64,000 bases of DNA, taken from the NCBI GenBank assembly GCA_921293015.1, contig OV121081.1, positions 29,825,158-29,889,157 of the forward strand, in the 5' to 3' direction. Shown here one piece after another: positions 44,601 to 59,778 of the stretch. Within the stretch, counting starts at the first letter, position 1. The number at the start of each line of letters is the position of its first letter. Both the position numbers and the translations under genes were made by a program. Source of the stretch: Phorcus lineatus. Its lineage: Eukaryota; Mollusca; Gastropoda; Trochida; Trochidae. The notes beneath the pieces were generated by a model. That model saw nothing but the letters and a program-made list of their open reading frames with translations, was not told where the DNA came from and ran no database searches.

Positions 44601-45454
44601 AAAAGACATTCGCAGTAATCATTGCAACATTTGTACAACCTATTTCCTTTTCCACCGAAAACTGTCATTCATATTAATTGAGACCAAGAAATGTTTAGTT
44701 AATTGTCTTTACTTTTGAACCTTTTGAAAGAACCAGTTGCGGAACCAAGAATTATGTAGGGGGTTCACTACTCTTTTACCCTTTGTTAAATTGAAATACA
44801 CCAAAATGGTCTATTAGTTTAAAGGCTTCTAACCTATGCAAAGTTACATATCATACACATTCATTTCACATGCCAATCTGCTTGCATGCCATGAGATGTC
44901 GCTGTTACCGAGTCGGTGTATTCGCAGCTCAAATCACTCAGACCTACGCTTTGTACGATATAGGTTACCTTTTATCGTATCTGTATAGAGCAAATCTAAA
45001 CTTGGAAACTTGTTAATACAATGACAGATAAACCCAACCGGCATTTATGATTCTAATAACGAGTGACAAGCCTTATATCATATACGTGTCGTTGAAAAAC
45101 CTGAATATCAGTATAGGTCGCTTTGACACGCCACATAAACTCGCTTTGCTCTTAGCGACCTAAACCTTTTATTTGTATTCAAATAACGTGAGCATTTCCT
45201 TTCTTTTTTTCCGTGGAAATAGTTAAAGTTTGACATATATAATATCATACGTCAGAGTTAACAAGAAAGTCTGATCGTTACTTCCGGGAAGAAGATTTAA
45301 TTTCGCCTGCAGTGTATGTAAGATACCCATTAGTGTATGATTAGATTCTACTTACGTTACGCTAATAATTGTCCTCGGGATTGCCACACCTTATATGTAA
45401 TGAAATTTCCGATTTGAGCCTATAGCACTCGCATATCTGCATGCATACATAACC

Positions 45455-45970
45455 TCTTAGTGTACTGATCCATATCCTCTTGATGTACTAAACCTCATAT
45501 CTCCTTGGTGTACTGATCCATATCCTCTTGATGTACTAAACCTCATATCTCCTTGGTGTACTGATCCATATCCTCTTGATGTACTAAACCTCATATCTCC
45601 TTGGTGTACTGATCCATATCCTCTTGATGTACTAAACCTCATATTCTCTTGGTGTACTGATCCATACCCTTTTGATGTACACCTAACATCCTCTTGGTGT
45701 ACTGATCCATATCCTCTTGATGTACTAAACCTCAAATCATCTTGGTGTACTGATCCATATCCTCTTGATGTACTAAACCTCATATCCTCTTGGTGTACTG
45801 ATCCATATCCTCTTGATGTACTAAACCTCATATCCTCTTGGTGTACTGATCCATATCCTCTTGATGTATTAAACCTCAAATCCTCTTGGCGTACTGATCC
45901 ATATCCTCTTGATGTACTAAACCTCAAACCATCTTGGTGTACTGATCCATATCCTCTTGATGTTTTCATC
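45455..45970 (-). repeat. 48-bp minisatellite with a 170-codon open frame
   Basis: About ten copies of a 48-bp unit, each made of two related 24-bp halves, translate on the minus strand to a 16-residue repeat of the form TSRGYGSVHQEDMRFS. The frame runs from an ATG at 45969 to a stop at 45457. Length changes keep the frame (one unit lacks exactly 3 nt). Degenerate units continue to about 46100. I see no splice context or promoter, so coding is unproven. Confidence 0.75.
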
Positions 45971-47303
45971 TATCTCCTATATATTTGTGTACTATTCAAT
46001 ATCCTCTTGATGTACTCAAACATATCCTCATGGATTACTCACCCATATCCATGTACTCACATATAACCTCTGTATGTATAAACATCCATATCCTCTTGGT
46101 ATATTCATCAAGCGTACATTGTCTTCAAAAAGTTCAATGAAAAGGCGTCTATTTGAGGCAGGCTTCTTTTCAAGGCAGCCGTCTAATTAAGGGTTTACGG
46201 TAACTTGCACTGCGATGCATTTGCATTAATCATTCAAGTTTTACTATATAAGTAACATGATATGATACATAATGTCTGCTATCTGCTGGATAATTTGTGA
46301 TACTGAATACTCTAGATAGAATATGTACAGCTGTATACCGGAAGTTTGATCACTAACTTTCCTATCCTATAGTGCAAATATCATGTATATTTATTGGTAT
46401 TTCTTCAAAACATCTTTGCATAGATAAATTTCAACATGCATGTTGTGTCAGTAGCAACGATTGACTGGTCCATAAAATGACCTTATATCATAGCCTACAA
46501 TTAACTGTAACATTTTTGGCAGCTCGTTGAATTGACAAGCGGTCAACATTTCGAAAACTTCAATTTTCCAAATAAGCGATCAATAGTGTAAAACATTAGT
46601 CCTGTAGTCTATCTTATGTTTAATCATTATATGCATGATTAAATTTGTTTTATCAAGTCAATAAATAAAAATTTTTGAAAATAGCAATTTTGAAAATCTG
46701 ACCGCATATGCTTTTTTCTTATTGTCAAAGTTCGAAAGTAAGCACCATCCACCTGACCCAGCAATGATAAAGTGTAGACTGATTATATTGCACATGGGCA
46801 TGAGAAGGCATATTTTAAATGCATATGAAGTTAGGCAACATGTGTCCAAACAAAATCCAAATTACATGGTATTTGCCCTGGGATACATAGGTAGGTGAAT
46901 ATACTTTCAGTATGCACCTGTAGTCACTGAACCTATATATTCATGCACAACGAAGGCACGTAGTTATCTTTACGTCAGACCCGAGTCTTCTTTCATTTCG
47001 GCGTTTTTGCACAAATGAGGAAACGCGAAGAAAAAAGAAAAACATTGGGTTAAAAGTCAACGGAACAACCTTGATTTCGGGTTTGCAACAGGTCCTCTGT
47101 GAAAGATTTATCGTCATATTATTTTATAGTAGACAATGTATAGTTTATAGGTAGACAATGCTTAATATGATTTTGAGTTTTGTAAAATAATTGAAAATAT
47201 ATATTTCCACCAATGTATTTGATATCTTAATCGTTTCTTGTTTGTTTCAGGAGAAGCATTTATATAGGCATTTGCTGCCTGTTTGCTAATCCTTTTCCCT
47301 TTT

Positions 47304-53912: not shown

Positions 53913-53992
53913 GAATCTACGTGATGAAAAAGGGGGGTGACATAATTGATGATTGATGGATGATTGATGAGTTTTTAATCCCCTCACGTCAC
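53913..53992 (+). repeat. Left terminal inverted repeat of the Polinton-like unit
   Basis: Begins GAATCTACGTGATGAAAA then a G run and TGACATAATTGATGATTGA. The same order, complemented, is found at 59654-59778. A degenerate second copy of the TATAGTCCTTTTTT subunit follows directly at 53995-54040. Confidence 0.8.
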
Positions 53993-53999
53993 ATATAGT

Positions 54000-54760
54000 C
54001 CTTTTTTTGTCAGCTGACGTCATTAATTATTGTAAACAAAACAAAACCAGTTTAAACCAGTTTGTGTTAAGGTACCTATAAAACCCGATCTCTTACAGTA
54101 CAAATACCACTCACAAAGTTGGACTGTGACCTGCTGCATGAAAACCCTCAGAAAAACATCAGAGTTGAAGATCAATACTTTAAGAACATAAGCAGAAGAC
54201 ACTAGCTATTTTCTTTCAAAGCAAGAACAAAACAAAAAATACTAATGACTTACCAGTTAATCCTTCCAGTATTGATCAAGGTTGTCCAGGAATGAAGGTT
54301 TGACTATCTCACAGTTTTATAAATTGGTATTCTCACATCATATCACAGTTGACAGTTCTGCTTCATTGGTCAGCTTTCAGTTGTTATTAAAGCCCCAGAG
54401 GGTGTCTTCACATAATTGTAGATGTTTATATGGAGACCTTCAGTAAAGTAATAATAAGGGAATTGAGTTTTTTAAAGTAACATCAAATCCTCCCATAATT
54501 ACTTTAAACAATGTCCATGTAATTTTATTAAGGGACAGTTCTTTCTCTCTTTTTTATTTTTTTTTTTTTTATTATTATTATTATTTTTTTTACATATCCT
54601 CTGGGAAGGGAACCAGATGATTTAATCCAAAAATATAAAAAAAACCATATGTATAATATGTTACAACTGTTAGTTTTAAAGTTTTTCAGTATCTTGGATA
54701 GTAATTGGATAAGTTGAATTAAAAAAGTAATATTTATATAGATTGTTGAAAATAACAAAG
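54000..54760. other. Left interior of the Polinton-like unit, no clear gene
   Basis: Contains a possible minus-strand exon ending ACTG|GTAAGT near 54253, an ATT/T-rich simple run at 54545-54592 with an AATAAA-like signal on the minus strand, and otherwise no frame I can name. Confidence 0.35.
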
Positions 54761-54767
54761 GTCCTTC

Positions 54768-55568
54768 TTACAGATCCCAAATGAGAGCTTCCAGGCTTAT
54801 TATTTGGAGTCGTAGTTGTTTAAGGCCTTCTTGTACCGGCGTTACGTTTAACCTGCCATAGAACCTTCTTTTACTAAAACATATAATTGACAAAAAATTA
54901 ATGTTTTAAAAACTATCTATTTTTATATTAATAGTTACTGTAAAAAAAAGAATTCTGAAGAAAATATACTCACAGAAGGTTTTGTTGTTGTATTGCTTGA
55001 GGAGCAATAGGGACAGGAACGACTGACTTTGAGGGGGTATCAGCTGGGATATTTACTTGGTCACCAGCTGGTATAGCAACAGGCATATTAACCTGACCAG
55101 GTTGTTGTGGCATGGCTTCTGGGAGAACCTATCATACAAAATAAAGACTAATTTAGACTAATATATCCTAAACAGCTATAGATAAGTTGGAAATGATATT
55201 ACCATATATATGATTAAAAGTCAGTGATATTTGTCAAACAAAAGAAAAAAACTATACGACAAAATGTTGATAAAAAGTTTTAAGTGAAACATGACAATAG
55301 TTGTAAAATAGAATAGAACTTACTATGGCATTCCTTATTATGTCCACAAGTTCCTGCTCTCTAAAAACAAAAAAATATATAAATCTTTTTTTTAACATAT
55401 TTTTGGGGATTGTGTTTATCTTAAGTGCTCTAAAAATACATTTAAGCACACTTTAATGTGGTGCAAAAAATGGATAAAGAATACATACTTTGAATAATAT
55501 CAGGGATTAATTAAAAAGATGTATGATATAACAAAACATTAGACATACTCATTATTAAAACCGTCCAT
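54768..55568 (-). CDS. Four-exon gene for a 105-aa Pro/Gln-rich protein
   Basis: Exons 55584-55549 (ATG at 55568 in a strong context, GCCATGG), 55360-55324, 55128-54974 and 54873-54768. Junctions are canonical (TTTCAG, GA|GTATGT; TTTTTAG, ATA|GTAAGT; GATAG, CT|GTGAGT; TTTTAG), all phases agree and the frame ends at TAA. The protein starts MDGFNNEEQELVDII, has a middle rich in Pro, Gln and Val (PQQPGQVNMPVAIPAGDQ), and ends with a basic then Leu-rich helix (RRFYGRLNVT; LKQLRLQIISLEALIWDL). Product not recognised. A further donor GATCT|GTAAGA overlaps the stop, so a longer isoform is possible. Confidence 0.7.
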
Positions 55569-55643
55569 GGCGTTATCTCCATTTCTGAAATTTAATAGAA
55601 CAGATTGATAATTTTTGCAATTTTTAATGGTCTATATAGGCTT

Positions 55644-56018
55644 CTATCCTATAGCTCTTGCCCACACCTCTGACATGATCAATGCTTCCTGTCTCACTTC
55701 ATCCATATATTTTAATATAAATGCTATCACTGGTGTATTTTCAATTAAAAGTCGTTTTCGCACATCGTCTGTGGTGACAGGATCGGCAAAACGTGTTAGC
55801 ATAGTTAAATAGTTATTATTAGGATTTGGTTGAAGATATTTTCTTCTTTCACTCATTGTCACCACTATACGAGCATCTAATAAACGTCGAGCTATGGCGA
55901 CCATGGCTAACAACTGTTCACAATTCATATCCGTCACTTCTTGTATGGTATATTCATAGTCATGAAACAGAATTAGACTCGGCAGAAAATCATAATGTCT
56001 CAATATAAAACGTGACAT
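55644..56018 (-). CDS. Unknown 124-aa protein in the Polinton-like unit
   Basis: Intact frame starting MSRFILRHYDFLPSL inside the end of the penton-like gene. It is helical and charged (ERRKYLQPNPNNNYLTML, TDDVRKRLL) with no signal peptide or obvious metal site. I do not recognise it. Position and overlap argue that it is a real gene of the element. Confidence 0.55.
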   Translation of the reverse strand: MSRFILRHYDFLPSLILFHDYEYTIQEVTDMNCEQLLAMVAIARRLLDARIVVTMSERRKYLQPNPNNNYLTMLTRFADPVTTDDVRKRLLIENTPVIAFILKYMDEVRQEALIMSEVWARAIG

Positions 56019-56448
56019 GATAGAACCATAAAGGAAGTGGTTTCAAGTGAAGAGTCACTGTAACTTTACCAGTTAAAAATGTAGCTGGCTGACCTTCTTC
56101 GTCAATGATGATAATATCAATGCTTGTAAGATCACGTACTTTGATGGGTACATATTGATATCTAGTGAAAATAAAGGATTTTCCATTGTTTAAACATAAT
56201 CGTCTGAGTAAAGGCTCTTGATTTTCACCCACATAAGTTGAATCACAGATAGAAGAATGTACATAAATTTCTTTGAACTTTGAACTTCTTCTGACACTGT
56301 TAATACTAATTTCGGTTAGAGCAATCATCAAAAAATGTTCAAAATGTAGTAGTTCATTCAATTGAACTCGAAATGACCAGGACTGATTGTCGGGATACCT
56401 ATCTTTACTGTCACTACTTCTTAAAATTATGTATTTTTCCATTATCAC
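55990..56448 (-). CDS. Penton-like minor capsid protein, 152 aa
   Basis: Intact frame beginning MIMEKYIILRSSDSKDRYPD. The pattern of an N-terminal S..S...YP.N....F.V.L segment, a central IYVHSSICDSTYVGE...PLLRR motif, and a C-terminal F.TGKVTVTLHL strand matches the single-jelly-roll penton proteins of Polintons/adintoviruses. In a complete element it would sit at virion vertices. It overlaps the downstream frame by 29 nt. No major capsid gene is present here. Confidence 0.65.
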   Translation of the reverse strand: MIMEKYIILRSSDSKDRYPDNQSWSFRVQLNELLHFEHFLMIALTEISINSVRRSSKFKEIYVHSSICDSTYVGENQEPLLRRLCLNNGKSFIFTRYQYVPIKVRDLTSIDIIIIDEEGQPATFLTGKVTVTLHLKPLPLWFYHVTFYIETL

Positions 56449-56723
56449 TTTTGAGATTTTATTTTAGGATGGGGAAGTAAATATCCAAGACTACTACTCA
56501 ATAATGCTGTCCATAAATTAGAATTTCCTTTGTCCAAAGACAAGTTCACTATACATGTAATAACCACTAAGTAAATATTGATGATCTGAGAGAAAAATAC
56601 TGTTTCGTTTATGACCACTTTTTTTCCAAGTAAACTCCAGGTTTCATTCGATCTACTACTTCGTGAAAGAGGTTGTGACTCAATGGGTTCTTCCATCCTT
56701 TTGTGTTTGAAATACATTAACAT
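56445..56723 (-). CDS. Small membrane protein of Polinton-like element, 92 aa
   Basis: Intact frame. Residues about 40-60 (VFFSQIINIYLVVITCIVNL) form one membrane helix, and a second hydrophobic stretch, LWTALLSSSLGYLLPHPKIK, follows. I recall a similar small membrane protein beside the integrase in adintovirus/Polinton relatives. Its last codons overlap the next start by 4 nt (ATGA type), as in compact viral operon-like layouts. Role unknown. Confidence 0.6.
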   Translation of the reverse strand: MLMYFKHKRMEEPIESQPLSRSSRSNETWSLLGKKVVINETVFFSQIINIYLVVITCIVNLSLDKGNSNLWTALLSSSLGYLLPHPKIKSQK

Positions 56724-56754
56724 CTTCCTTTTATAGGATCTGATACTGTCTCAT

Positions 56755-57743
56755 GTCGTTCTCAAGAATCCATGAGTTGTATTTCCTTGGTCAATGAAGC
56801 CATTTCACCAACACTTCTTTCCGTTTGTTTCGTGTTCGCCTTTTGATAATGTCTTGTATCCTATATTCTTGGTCTGGATGTTCAGCCACGAATTGCAATT
56901 CAGCAGCATAAAATGAACCTTCAATAGGATCACCTCCTCAATCTTTCAGTTTGTACAAATCATTATCTTGAGACCAATAGCATCGGGCAATGGTAAAGAT
57001 TTCACCACTCCATTTTTCCTGATATTCTCTATCAAATTTACCATTCAAATGACTTATTCGAACTGTATCTCCTACTTTGAATGTGAATTTTCTTTTTGCA
57101 TTTTTCTTGATTGGTTTCTTGGCTTTTCTCTTGATCAAATACTGTGATAACCTCACTTCTCCTTCATTAGTTTTATTCACACTATTAGGAGATTGACCAA
57201 TCATACGATGAAAAGAACCATTATAACTTTTTACAACTTTAGGTAGGATATCTATGTATCTATATGTAAAGTTTTTCAACATGTATCTATACAATCGCAT
57301 TTTAAGAGTTTTAATCACTCTCTCAGCATAAGGAGATTTCGTCTCATTGAGTGTAAACAGCTGTGTTACGTTGTGTTTTTTTCAAAAAGTTTTGTTGACT
57401 GTAGAGGATAGATCCAAAGATAGCGGGAAAATAAATCAATGATAACCAATACATATTTTTACACCATCATTATATTTAGCTAATGAAACCATATTCATCA
57501 AATCGGCTTGCCAGTGACTATCTATACCTTCAATAACATATGTATTTCTTGGAAACTTTCGTCTCACTTGATGAGTCATAGTGTATGTTTCCTGACTTTC
57601 AGCCATTTCTTGATGCGATGAAGACCAATCTTTAATTGACCTTCAGCTTTCACAGCTTCGTATAATTTCTTGGCTCCAGCATAACTTCCTGGATGGGATG
57701 GATCATAATAAATTCTCTTGAGATAGTCTTCCCAAGGAGCCAT
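56755..57743 (-). pseudogene. Polinton-type RVE integrase with chromodomain, broken
   Basis: This is a retroviral-type DDE integrase of the Polinton group, which would insert the element. It starts at ATG 57743 (MAPWEDYLKRIYYDPSHPGS). The first catalytic Asp is seen in SHWQADLMNM, and the Glu in the YAERVIKTLK region. Breaks: a 1-nt loss near 57597, an extra A in the A-run near 57463, a deletion near 57350-57390 removing the segment with the second catalytic Asp, and in-frame TGA codons near 56938 and in the C-terminal chromodomain. The longest intact piece is 56938-57318 (SYNGSFHRMIG, FKVGDTVRISHL). Not functional. Confidence 0.85.
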
Positions 57744-57820
57744 TATGACCAACTAAATAGATTAGTCTGGTAACACACTATTTATATATCAGAAACACAT
57801 ATTGTAAATTTCAACTACAA

Positions 57821-57826
57821 TTTATT
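57821..57826 (-). terminator. Poly(A) signal of the CARD-PC4-BIR gene
   Basis: AATAAA on the minus strand, 68 nt past the final TGA and before the integrase start. Confidence 0.55.
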
Positions 57827-57893
57827 CAAGAAATGTATAGTTATTGACAGTACAATATACATCTGTACAATTATTTTAATATTATCCTTGACT

Positions 57894-58301
57894 TCAAATG
57901 AATAATGTCGGAGCCCAAGATCCAGTAGTTTTAGAAAACCTTTCTGTAGGCACTCCTACCATACGGAGATAGTCACACTCAGGAGACCACTTCTCATGCT
58001 CCACCCAGGGGTCATCCGTAGATATCCATTCTTTGAGTCGCATACCTCACTTAGAACAAATACATGAGTCTCCACGATTCATATAATAGAGTCCTGCATG
58101 AGCCAAGTCTCTAGGATTTTGCTTCATTTGAAGAGGCCAGTCCTTAAACGATTCCAGTCTTTTCTCAAAGGAAGTGTAATCAGACCTAGTTGGTAATGAA
58201 CCACTGCAATCAGCAACAGTCTCATATCCATAGGAATCCATGCTATAAGAGCTATTGTAAAACACGTCTTTACAGTCCAAAGTCTCTGAGCGTAATGCAC
58301 T
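57894..58301 (-). pseudogene. BIR-domain tail, same frame after TGA
   Basis: The frame continues past TGA 58302-58304 without other stops to TGA 58047-58049, then on to TGA 57894-57896. It encodes a BIR-type zinc domain: FEKRLESFKDWP...LAHAGLYYMNRGD, a Cys, W, and [14 protein letters not shown]. The second zinc-ligand Cys position is the TGA at 58047-58049. BIR domains of IAP proteins block caspases or signal in immunity. A poly(A) signal (AATAAA on minus) lies at 57826-57821. The tail is broken, unless the stops are recoded. Confidence 0.65.
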
Positions 58302-59326
58302 TCACCAGTTCATCCAATCTCCAGGGTTACATTTAGAACATTGCAAATGCTCCATTTGACCCTGGTGAAAATGCTCATCATTTGTATAACTATCATTATT
58401 GATATTTACATTATCATCTTCATCATCAGTATCTTCACCATTTTTTCTACTGTTAACCATAGTGCTATACCCCGGTAAGACCATATCCATCAGATGGTCA
58501 AGTCTGTTATAGTCTCGTTCCATCTCCTGACGTATCTCCCGTAGTTGTTGATCTAAAAGATCCTCTCCCTCAGTGTTGGGAACTGTAAAGTCTTCTATGT
58601 CAGGCTTTTCAGTCTCTTTGGACTCACTATCTTGTTTTGTCTTCTTGGTAGGTTGCTGAGCCTCATCCTCTGATAGTTTTCTCTTCAAGACGTCATTAGA
58701 GTTCTTAGATTCATTGGCCCCGTTCTTCTCTGTAAGTTTGTTAGAATCTGTACTCTTAAGAGAGTCAGGCATCATATCCCTCAGTTCGGGTACAAAGTCT
58801 GGCATCACATCACAACAGTCTCTCAATTTTGTCCACTGATCTTGGGATAGTAGAATACCTTTAGATGACGGTACTTCTTTTCCGTCAATGTGTTCCCATT
58901 GCCTTAGATCCACACCTTGGTCTTCCAATGTTGCATACACATTGGCTCCAAAAGAGGTATAAACTTCTGACTTACTGGACTCCTGCAAGAGGCAGAAAAC
59001 TCTGGGAAGTTCAAGCCAGTTATTTAGAGTTAACATTATGCCCCTTTTGGTAGGGTAAGTCTTACCACTCTCATAAACATTATACTTTCGTACGTCAATG
59101 TACATCGTATCGTTCCATGTCTTTGCTCTCACGAAAACATTATCCCCAAGTTCCAGATGACAACGAGGATGCTGAAGGGTAGCCAAGCGCTGATCTTCCT
59201 CAATTAGGAGACTGGCTGCTTTAGATTCTCCAGATGCCTGTAAGGCCTGACAAAATTTATCCAAAGCTTGTGGTCCACATCTTGGTAACGTCAACACTAA
59301 GGCTCTGCTGCGGTTTGTTGGGTTTC
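58302..59326 (-). CDS. CARD (second half), two PC4-like domains, NLS, acidic tail
   Basis: This open frame can be read from an ATG at 59351 or from the acceptor GTTGTAG at 59327. In order it has RALVLTLPRCGPQALDKFC (CARD helices 4-6) and a PC4/p15-like unit (LGDNVFVRA...YIDVRKY...KRGIMLTLNNW). A second PC4-like unit follows (FGANVYATL...VDLRQW...SKGILLSQDQW), then a KRKLSED...PTKKTK nuclear signal, an acidic Asp/Asn-rich stretch and a CSKC pair. PC4 domains bind single-stranded DNA; CARD mediates death-fold pairing. The first in-frame TGA is at 58302. The combined role is inference: a nuclear or apoptosis regulator. Confidence 0.7.
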
Positions 59327-59421
59327 CTACAACATAAACATAATCTTTCATGAAAAGACAGAATTAATTGGTACTAAAGAAGCATATTTGAGTAAAGATT
59401 GATGAAAAGAGAGCTACTTAC

Positions 59422-59556
59422 CATAATATAGGATTTACTGTACTGATTCAGTACACCCCATTGCTCTAGCAAGTTGACCACAGGTTCCACATCTTCAATA
59501 GCTTGCAGAAGAGCACAAGGTGTATGCCGAAGGGTATTCATGTCTGAAATGTTCAT
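59422..59556 (-). CDS. CARD-PC4-BIR gene, first exon (N-terminal half of CARD)
   Basis: The ATG at 59556 has a good context (AAGATGA). The exon encodes the first helices of a CARD-like domain (LLQAIEDVEPVVNLLEQWGV) and ends at a strong donor ATG|GTAAGT. It lies only about 100 bases inside the right terminal repeat. Its phase (0) does not match either acceptor candidate of the next exon, which need phase 1. A second possible donor, TACA|GTAAAT, does match but would drop several residues of the domain. Either a 1-nt indel or a boundary I misplace explains this. Confidence 0.6.
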
Positions 59557-59653
59557 CTTGGTTGTGTTAGTGGACAACTGTTGAAGTGTTGTAAAAGTTA
59601 GGCCTTTTTTATAACATGGTGACATGACCTCAAGTTCAACATGGCATCTACTG

Positions 59654-59778
59654 GTCACGTGATGGATTAAATACCTCATTAATCATCCATCAATCATCAA
59701 TTATGTCACCTGTCAAAAAAGGACTATACACCCCCCCCCCCCCCCCCCCCCCCCATTTTCATCATCTACGTCAGATTC
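59654..59778 (-). repeat. Right terminal inverted repeat with a 24-base C run
   Basis: The complement of the left repeat, with an extra TATAGTCCTTTTTTGACAG block between the homopolymer and the shared core. The C run spans 59731-59754. Length differences may be assembly or slippage. Confidence 0.8.

Follow-up and report, generated by a model that had tools for sequence, protein, structure and literature searches.

A decayed Polinton-type provirus of Phorcus lineatus that carries BIR and CARD-PC4-PC4 genes

A 64-kb stretch of the genome of the gastropod Phorcus lineatus (C1:29825158-29889157 of a 958 Mb assembly in 74 contigs; hereafter the window) was analyzed, and at 53.9-59.8 kb it was found to contain a unit of 5.8 kb between two inverted repeats. 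We identify it as a decayed provirus, with an internal deletion, of a Polinton/adintovirus-type lineage. From the right repeat leftwards, its gene order is CARD-PC4-PC4, BIR, an integrase remnant, a 92-aa open reading frame (ORF) with a hydrophobic segment, a 150-aa capsid-type ORF and a 124-aa ORF, and then 1.6 kb without recognized genes; the ORFs of at least 100 aa between the repeats are all on the minus strand. Two Polinton lineages of this genome carry a gene for a MOSUB-like protein with two PC4 domains and a gene for a one-domain BIR protein side by side next to the integrase, in many copies, and in the window copy, as in abalone gene models, the double-PC4 protein begins with a fused CARD. 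The reading that we prefer, with a probability of slightly more than three in four, is that of a decayed adintovirus-type Polinton provirus whose cargo, the BIR and CARD-PC4-PC4 genes, would control cell death.

The CARD-PC4-PC4 gene and the BIR gene

The CARD-PC4-PC4 gene lies on the minus strand in two exons. Exon 1 (59422..59556) encodes the first part of the CARD, which was matched by a profile of the family's CARDs (E 9.8e-6 for the whole ORF, profile 5-48), and it is followed by a GT donor at 59421, recognized by eye. Exon 2 (58302..59326, with the stop at 58304-58302) was supported by Pfam, the genome scan and homologs, and encodes the rest of the CARD, PC4 domain 1 (59153-59007), PC4 domain 2 (58913-58818), a linker and a C-terminal Cys motif that is also found in the double-PC4 homologs. 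The two PC4 domains were detected in Pfam with an E-value of 5.4e-20. Pfam recognized the exon-2 part of the CARD only, under its cut-off (E 0.043), and a profile of nine CARDs of the family matched this part with an E-value of 2e-7 (profile 53-92). The intron divides the CARD, and the two exons are out of frame at the evident GT-AG pair, as judged by eye. Assignment to the CARD family is based on both a CARD sequence and the six-helix fold, and both were found.

Intact CARD-PC4-PC4 proteins are present in abalones and are the closest named proteins to the window gene, with several gene models in Haliotis rubra and H. asinina. Two abalone gene models named caspase-2-like (P0032 and P0033) have the CARD of this family and no other listed Pfam domain; they are probably misnamed element genes. 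Short contigs of ENA, JGI and further origin hold relatives that lack the CARD. When a structural model of the abalone orthologue P0001, used in place of the window ORF, was compared by Foldseek, the first match was MOSUB (a structure-library label) of a Branchiostoma lancelet adintovirus, with an E-value of 8.9e-6, a TM-score of 0.54 by target and 0.41 by query, and 19% identity; it was the only match below 0.001. The alignment of this model with PDB structures tests mostly the CARD part.

The BIR gene (57906..58241, minus strand) encodes a single BIR domain and was delimited by Pfam, the genome scan and intact relatives. In the window, an in-frame stop lies inside the domain (match 58160-57966), and the BIR was therefore detected in two pieces (E 2e-7 and 1.9e-6 in Pfam; 68.2 bits with one stop in the genome scan), whereas intact sister BIRs gave E-values of 5.1e-23 and 3.4e-22, over the curated cut-off. 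The element protein has one BIR in ~119 aa and no other domain over the cut-off, and its best solved relatives are the BIRs of NAIP, cIAP, XIAP, Drosophila IAP1 and BIRC7. A preliminary description of this DNA had read CARD, both PC4 units and BIR as one gene with a nuclear localization signal in it and a polyadenylation signal of its own. The domains were all recovered, and by eye so were an NLS-like basic run within the linker and an AATAAA signal downstream of the BIR gene (57821..57826, minus strand). The single protein was ruled out, because the CARD-PC4-PC4 frame ends in a stop at the same place in the window and in the sister loci L009 and L011, with two further stops just before it in L009, and the BIR has a frame of its own, intact at 119 aa in L011. 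Moreover, the BIR lies downstream of the double PC4 in the window and upstream of it in the other lineage. The four-domain protein is thus two adjacent genes that had been read together, both of them broken in the window.

The pair, the repeats and the structure of the unit

Genomic copies of the CARD-PC4-PC4 gene were located via PF02229 alone, which gave PC4 matches at 26 places; the sequence was read at 17 of them. At 16 of the 17 (the window, L002-L014, L028 and L029) a BIR match lay within ~1.5 kb of the double PC4; L001, a lone PC4 piece, had no BIR beside it. Integrase pieces followed the pair directly in L002, L003, L005, L028 and L029, and pieces of the lineage integrase were found in L011 and L012 as well. 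The pair is best read as element cargo and not a bystander, as had been supposed from the window alone, and the main basis for this conclusion is that the BIR/double-PC4 pair recurs beside the integrase. The integrase of the window is a remnant (56734..57752, minus strand) with N-terminal, catalytic and chromodomain pieces in different frames and part of the catalytic core gone. Pfam matched rve (E 0.0021) and Chromo (E 0.003) in the correct order, both below cut-off, and gave no integrase match for the remaining pieces. The frames of L002, L003 and L005, which measure 352 aa and are cut at the piece ends, are 66-82% identical to the window pieces, and the corresponding identity in L028 and L029 is 67-80%.

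The 150-aa capsid-type ORF (55990..56442, minus strand) is of the size of a single jelly roll, and from Polinton anatomy we take it to be penton-like. It has 66 matches in the genome and four relatives of 145-146 aa, 47-53% identical, on short ENA and JGI contigs. Its structural model first matched a protein of Drosophila-associated adintovirus 2 (E 3.8e-5), but the pLDDT was 43.7 and other folds followed closely, so that the model is too poor to serve as a basis. A match to this minor-capsid-type ORF, the one query used for virion genes, lay within 5 kb of 9 of the 26 PC4 places, against a mean of 0.02 and a maximum of 1 in 2000 random draws with uniform placement. In addition, PolB lies 8.1-9.3 kb from four sister modules, with frames of 1,753-1,766 aa at three places. 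The distance counts comprised 62 of the 66 capsid rows and 45 (PC4 count) or 46 (BIR count) of 57 PolB rows, with one row per double-PC4 place and second pieces of the same place dropped; L001 was included in the 26 places of the PC4-distance count and excluded from the BIR-proximity count, which had 25.

The nine full-length BIR frames of the common lineage differed by 0-0.025 at non-synonymous (dN) and 0-0.075 at synonymous (dS) sites, some pairs being identical, and the double PC4 of L013 differed from the others by a dN of 0.087-0.096 and a dS of 0.37-0.56. A dN below dS suggests purifying selection on the pair, though the copies are close. In L002 and L003, on different contigs, both genes are identical, either because the element spread recently or because the assembly has this stretch in duplicate. 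The BIR of L013 (C17:41522800-41525800) is 99% identical to that of L002, and the adjacent double PC4 only 85%; this locus is a mosaic and suggests recombination between element copies.

The terminal repeats have cores at 53936..53992 (left, plus strand) and 59654..59710 (right, minus strand), both defined by local alignment, with arms of 57 bp that are 86% complementary. The alignment score was 82, while random pairs of 450-bp stretches drawn from the window (n = 300) gave a median of 22 and a maximum of 67. The latter value shows that low-complexity matches do happen in the window, and short TGATG-type runs occur inside the repeat, so the repeat on its own is modest evidence. It is better supported by turning up elsewhere together with pieces of integrase and of the capsid-like ORF. 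A genome search with the left repeat gave six matches, two being its own arms. Two of the four others face each other on C19 and enclose a unit of ~1.2 kb, whose inverted arms have 141 aligned bases (88.7%) and which contains pieces of the integrase-chromodomain, the 92-aa ORF and the capsid-like ORF, all of the window unit's lineage. The third is on C32, at a distance of 5.8 kb from a match to the capsid ORF; the 1.4 kb read there, like that at the fourth (C11:24144212), contained no queried gene. The repeat thus accompanies Polinton genes in at least one other unit, and with one good and one weaker case it is a Polinton repeat. Recurrence of the terminal repeats without the genes of the unit, which the preliminary description had named as a sign against itself, gave a mixed outcome: the C19 unit held the viral pieces listed above but no BIR or PC4. 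A link of the repeat with the BIR and PC4 genes was seen in the window only.

The similarity of the arms seems, by eye, to extend outward to ~53913/59778. No PolB (PF03175) was found in the window, with at least 57 matches in the genome (91 of 152 candidates scored), which makes this copy a deletion derivative and not a complete Polinton. At the DNA level, the aligned parts of sister loci are 91-92% (L031), 88% (L009) and 79% (L011) identical to the window. Position 55627, where the alignment stops for L009 as well as for L031, is the likely deletion junction. Collectively, these data bear out the earlier proposal of a shortened Polinton/adintovirus-type unit with integrase and capsid-type genes inside inverted terminal repeats.

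The remaining features of the unit are the 92-aa ORF (56445..56723, minus strand; an 83% identical piece in L025), the 124-aa ORF (55644..56018, minus strand; 67-75% identical pieces in L009) and the rest up to the left repeat (53993..55626, no strand assigned), which had no match among the compared sister loci. Seven queries from the PC4-type, capsid-like and integrase genes gave no confirmed relative in a viral contig collection, which may omit near records. PHROGs yielded no match under E 0.02. Elsewhere in the window, a 48-bp tandem repeat (45448-46050, 12.6 copies) is open in frames of both strands. In L004, L006, L007, L008, L010 and L013 the main neighbor of the pair, past the double-PC4 gene, is a second and more distant integrase piece that lies on the other strand, and in all of these but L010 an Asp/Ser-coding microsatellite adjoins it; these are rearranged copies. 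A conserved ORF of ~209 aa lies upstream of the BIR in L005, L007, L013 and L014. Three of these ORFs were scanned and had no Pfam match over the cut-off, and the dN relative to L014 is about one quarter to one third of dS. A CARD in this ORF of the sister lineage looked plausible by eye and was not supported by profile comparison (probability 0.6%). At C11:1027877-1033441 the pair seems to be present twice in opposite orientation, ~4 kb apart; the left half (L014) was read.

BIR genes of the genome and the possible role of the cargo

The genome scan with PF00653 gave at least 150 BIR matches (150 of 204 candidates scored). All 150 were used, and merging those within 3 kb left 98 loci, whose distances to double-PC4, capsid-ORF and PolB matches were taken as distances to Polinton markers. 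Such a marker lay within 10 kb of 36 of the 98 loci, against a mean of 0.24 and a maximum of 3 in 1000 random draws. The 36 were all among the 58 single-BIR loci, and none of the 40 multi-BIR loci was near a marker. Capsid-ORF or PolB matches were near 22 of the 36, and 13 of these 22 had no double PC4. Some of these 13 are of the same lineage as the window unit, but the BIRs of four that adjoin PolB (L033-L036) fall into another supported group, so that at least one additional lineage seems to carry a BIR. A BIR tree of 31 rows, labeled host or polinton by marker distance, placed the element BIRs in two supported groups plus one long-branched row, and its starred branches require at least two label changes. 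Independent BIR captures are the likely explanation of this tree, with an old split as a possible one. One of the groups includes L049 (C9:47714800-47715500), whose BIR frame is almost identical to the element type, with no marker within 10 kb.

Several observations weigh against our reading. The window copy lacks PolB, and PolB lies within 15 kb of only 5 of the 26 PC4 places, one PolB being common to two of these. By eye, neither the exact ends nor a target-site duplication, which is ~6 bp in Polintons, was found, the ends being uncertain beside a G run. The CARD was present in one of the 15 stretches searched (the window and L001-L014) and does not belong to the common module, and 62 of the 98 BIR loci, including 22 with a single BIR, have no marker within 10 kb. 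The absence of BIR and PC4 from the C19 unit slightly lowered our confidence. The random draws presume uniform placement, and mobile elements cluster. The BIR copies are close relatives with small dS, and one pair has a dN of 0.021 against a dS of 0.029. Finally, the roles in death control, i.e., blocking of caspases or of proteins with an IAP-binding motif (IAP, inhibitor of apoptosis) by the BIR and competition by the CARD, are predicted from sequence. Some of these observations would also fit a chance capture, in which a host CARD-PC4 gene and a host IAP gene came to lie between unrelated inverted repeats and the provirus was a bystander: the copy is decayed and without PolB, CARD and BIR are common host domains with most BIR loci away from markers, and a second repeat-bounded unit has neither BIR nor PC4. 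We nonetheless consider chance capture highly improbable and largely refuted by recurrence, since the pair is found at dispersed places with lineage integrase pieces immediately next to it in L002, L003, L005, L011, L012, L028 and L029, the model of the abalone orthologue resembles a named adintovirus protein, and CARD-less relatives lie on short contigs from several sources.

If the unit is a provirus with death-control cargo, the BIR protein may act, by analogy, like other small viral IAPs and bind caspases or IAP-binding-motif proteins, which would keep the infected cell alive until virions are made. The PC4 pair could have a nuclear target, either single-stranded DNA or viral transcription complexes, and the fused CARD could compete in CARD-CARD assembly, in the apoptosome or in innate signaling, so that a viral DNA-binding protein would also be a decoy for death signals. 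Insertions in the germline would then supply further BIR genes, and these may be annotated as IAPs of the host.

Alternatively, the two domains might have a part in replication or in the assembly of virions, with the BIR, for example, forming a survivin-like scaffold and the CARD an oligomerization unit for the PC4 pair. Some one-BIR proteins, such as survivin, act in mitosis, and the protein that bears the CARD is predicted to bind nucleic acid, both of which fit this alternative. In the comparison of BIRs, however, survivin (BIRC5) scored 47.7 bits, whereas the best single NAIP domain in the first match scored 61.9; survivin also ranked below XIAP, BIRC7 and Drosophila IAP1. We consider such a role rather unlikely. 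Domestication, in which the host retains the CARD-PC4-PC4 and BIR genes of this locus or its sisters as immune or death regulators, would agree with the several CARD-PC4-PC4 gene models of H. rubra and H. asinina. Both genes are broken in the window, however, and low dN/dS among dispersed copies fits selection on a spreading element as well as on the host, so that we give this possibility little credence.

A wider proposal, to which we grant somewhat less than an even chance, extends the provirus reading to molluscs in general. Polintons would be vectors of IAPs, and a large share of the IAP expansion would consist of endogenous viral BIRs, kept by selection on the element, and not of host duplication or retroposition. 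At least two acquisitions would have been made by different lineages, and one lineage would have fused a caspase-type CARD to the MOSUB protein, jamming CARD-driven death signaling in the nucleus.

Significance and comparison with known systems

In mollusc genomes, including those of bivalves, IAP families have been reported to be strongly expanded, and the accessible parts of PMC7831173 and PMC8917759 ascribe this to tandem duplication and retroposition and tie it to stress and immunity. Over a third of the BIR loci found here adjoin Polinton markers, and a considerable share of the "apoptosis inhibitor" genes in this animal may have come as viral cargo; for this genome, a proviral origin offers an alternative to "retroposed" mollusc IAPs. 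If the same is true elsewhere, host IAP gene counts and the adaptive story built on them need revising, and Polintons gain a concrete set of counter-defense genes, supporting their life as real animal viruses.

With Polinton/Maverick elements and Adintoviridae, the unit and its relatives share inverted terminal repeats, an rve-type integrase with a chromodomain, a capsid-type ORF and PolB near related copies, together with a PC4-type protein whose abalone orthologue, when modeled, has MOSUB as its first viral structural match. The window copy differs in its 5.8 kb without PolB, in the BIR gene of its lineage and in its CARD on the MOSUB-like protein. Virus-encoded CARDs are known from a cod iridovirus, lymphocystis disease virus 3 and 4 and equine herpesvirus 2 (E10); the matched regions there cover 85-103 columns and are thus CARD-sized, whereas here the CARD is joined to two PC4 domains. 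The IAPs of baculoviruses are BIR proteins of a DNA virus too, usually with two BIRs and a RING, while the element protein has a single BIR in ~119 aa.

The accessible parts of the adintovirus papers PMC11071296, PMC11071308 and PMC8363768 hold nothing on BIR, CARD or PC4 in such elements. The preliminary description did not know the domain combination as a described family. Neither a CARD-PC4-PC4 fusion nor a BIR gene in Polintons appeared in the literature searched, whose coverage leaves out the original Adintoviridae proposal, where MOSUB or IAP-like genes may be described; the MOSUB fold, in contrast, is in a structure library, and BIR with PC4 has been reported as an IAP type. This type, G3, was given for the hard clam and mussels in PMC7831173 and explained there, as far as the accessible text goes, by domain co-option within a single gene, an innovation of the host. 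It shares with our loci the occurrence of BIR and PC4 together in mollusc gene models and differs, compared by description, in being one gene where we find two adjacent Polinton genes.

The closest parallel in genomic distribution is with intronless clam and oyster IAPs. According to section 7 of PMC7831173, 51 of 159 hard clam IAPs are intronless, including 42 of the 49 in one clade, with a single exon encoding the BIR, and DNA transposons are enriched around hard clam IAPs, a pattern interpreted as retroposition; the words polinton and Maverick are absent from its text. Intronless single-BIR genes of the oyster are likewise taken as retroposed in the accessible part of PMC8917759, and the repeat table of another clam genome lists Mavericks at 1.69 and 1.93% (PMC8905726, seen in part). 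These IAPs and the loci described here have in common a one-exon single BIR, scatter over chromosomes and, in the clam, DNA transposons nearby. The cause assigned to them is different: theirs is retroposition, and in this genome, the only one in which we have seen it, such loci adjoin Polinton markers.

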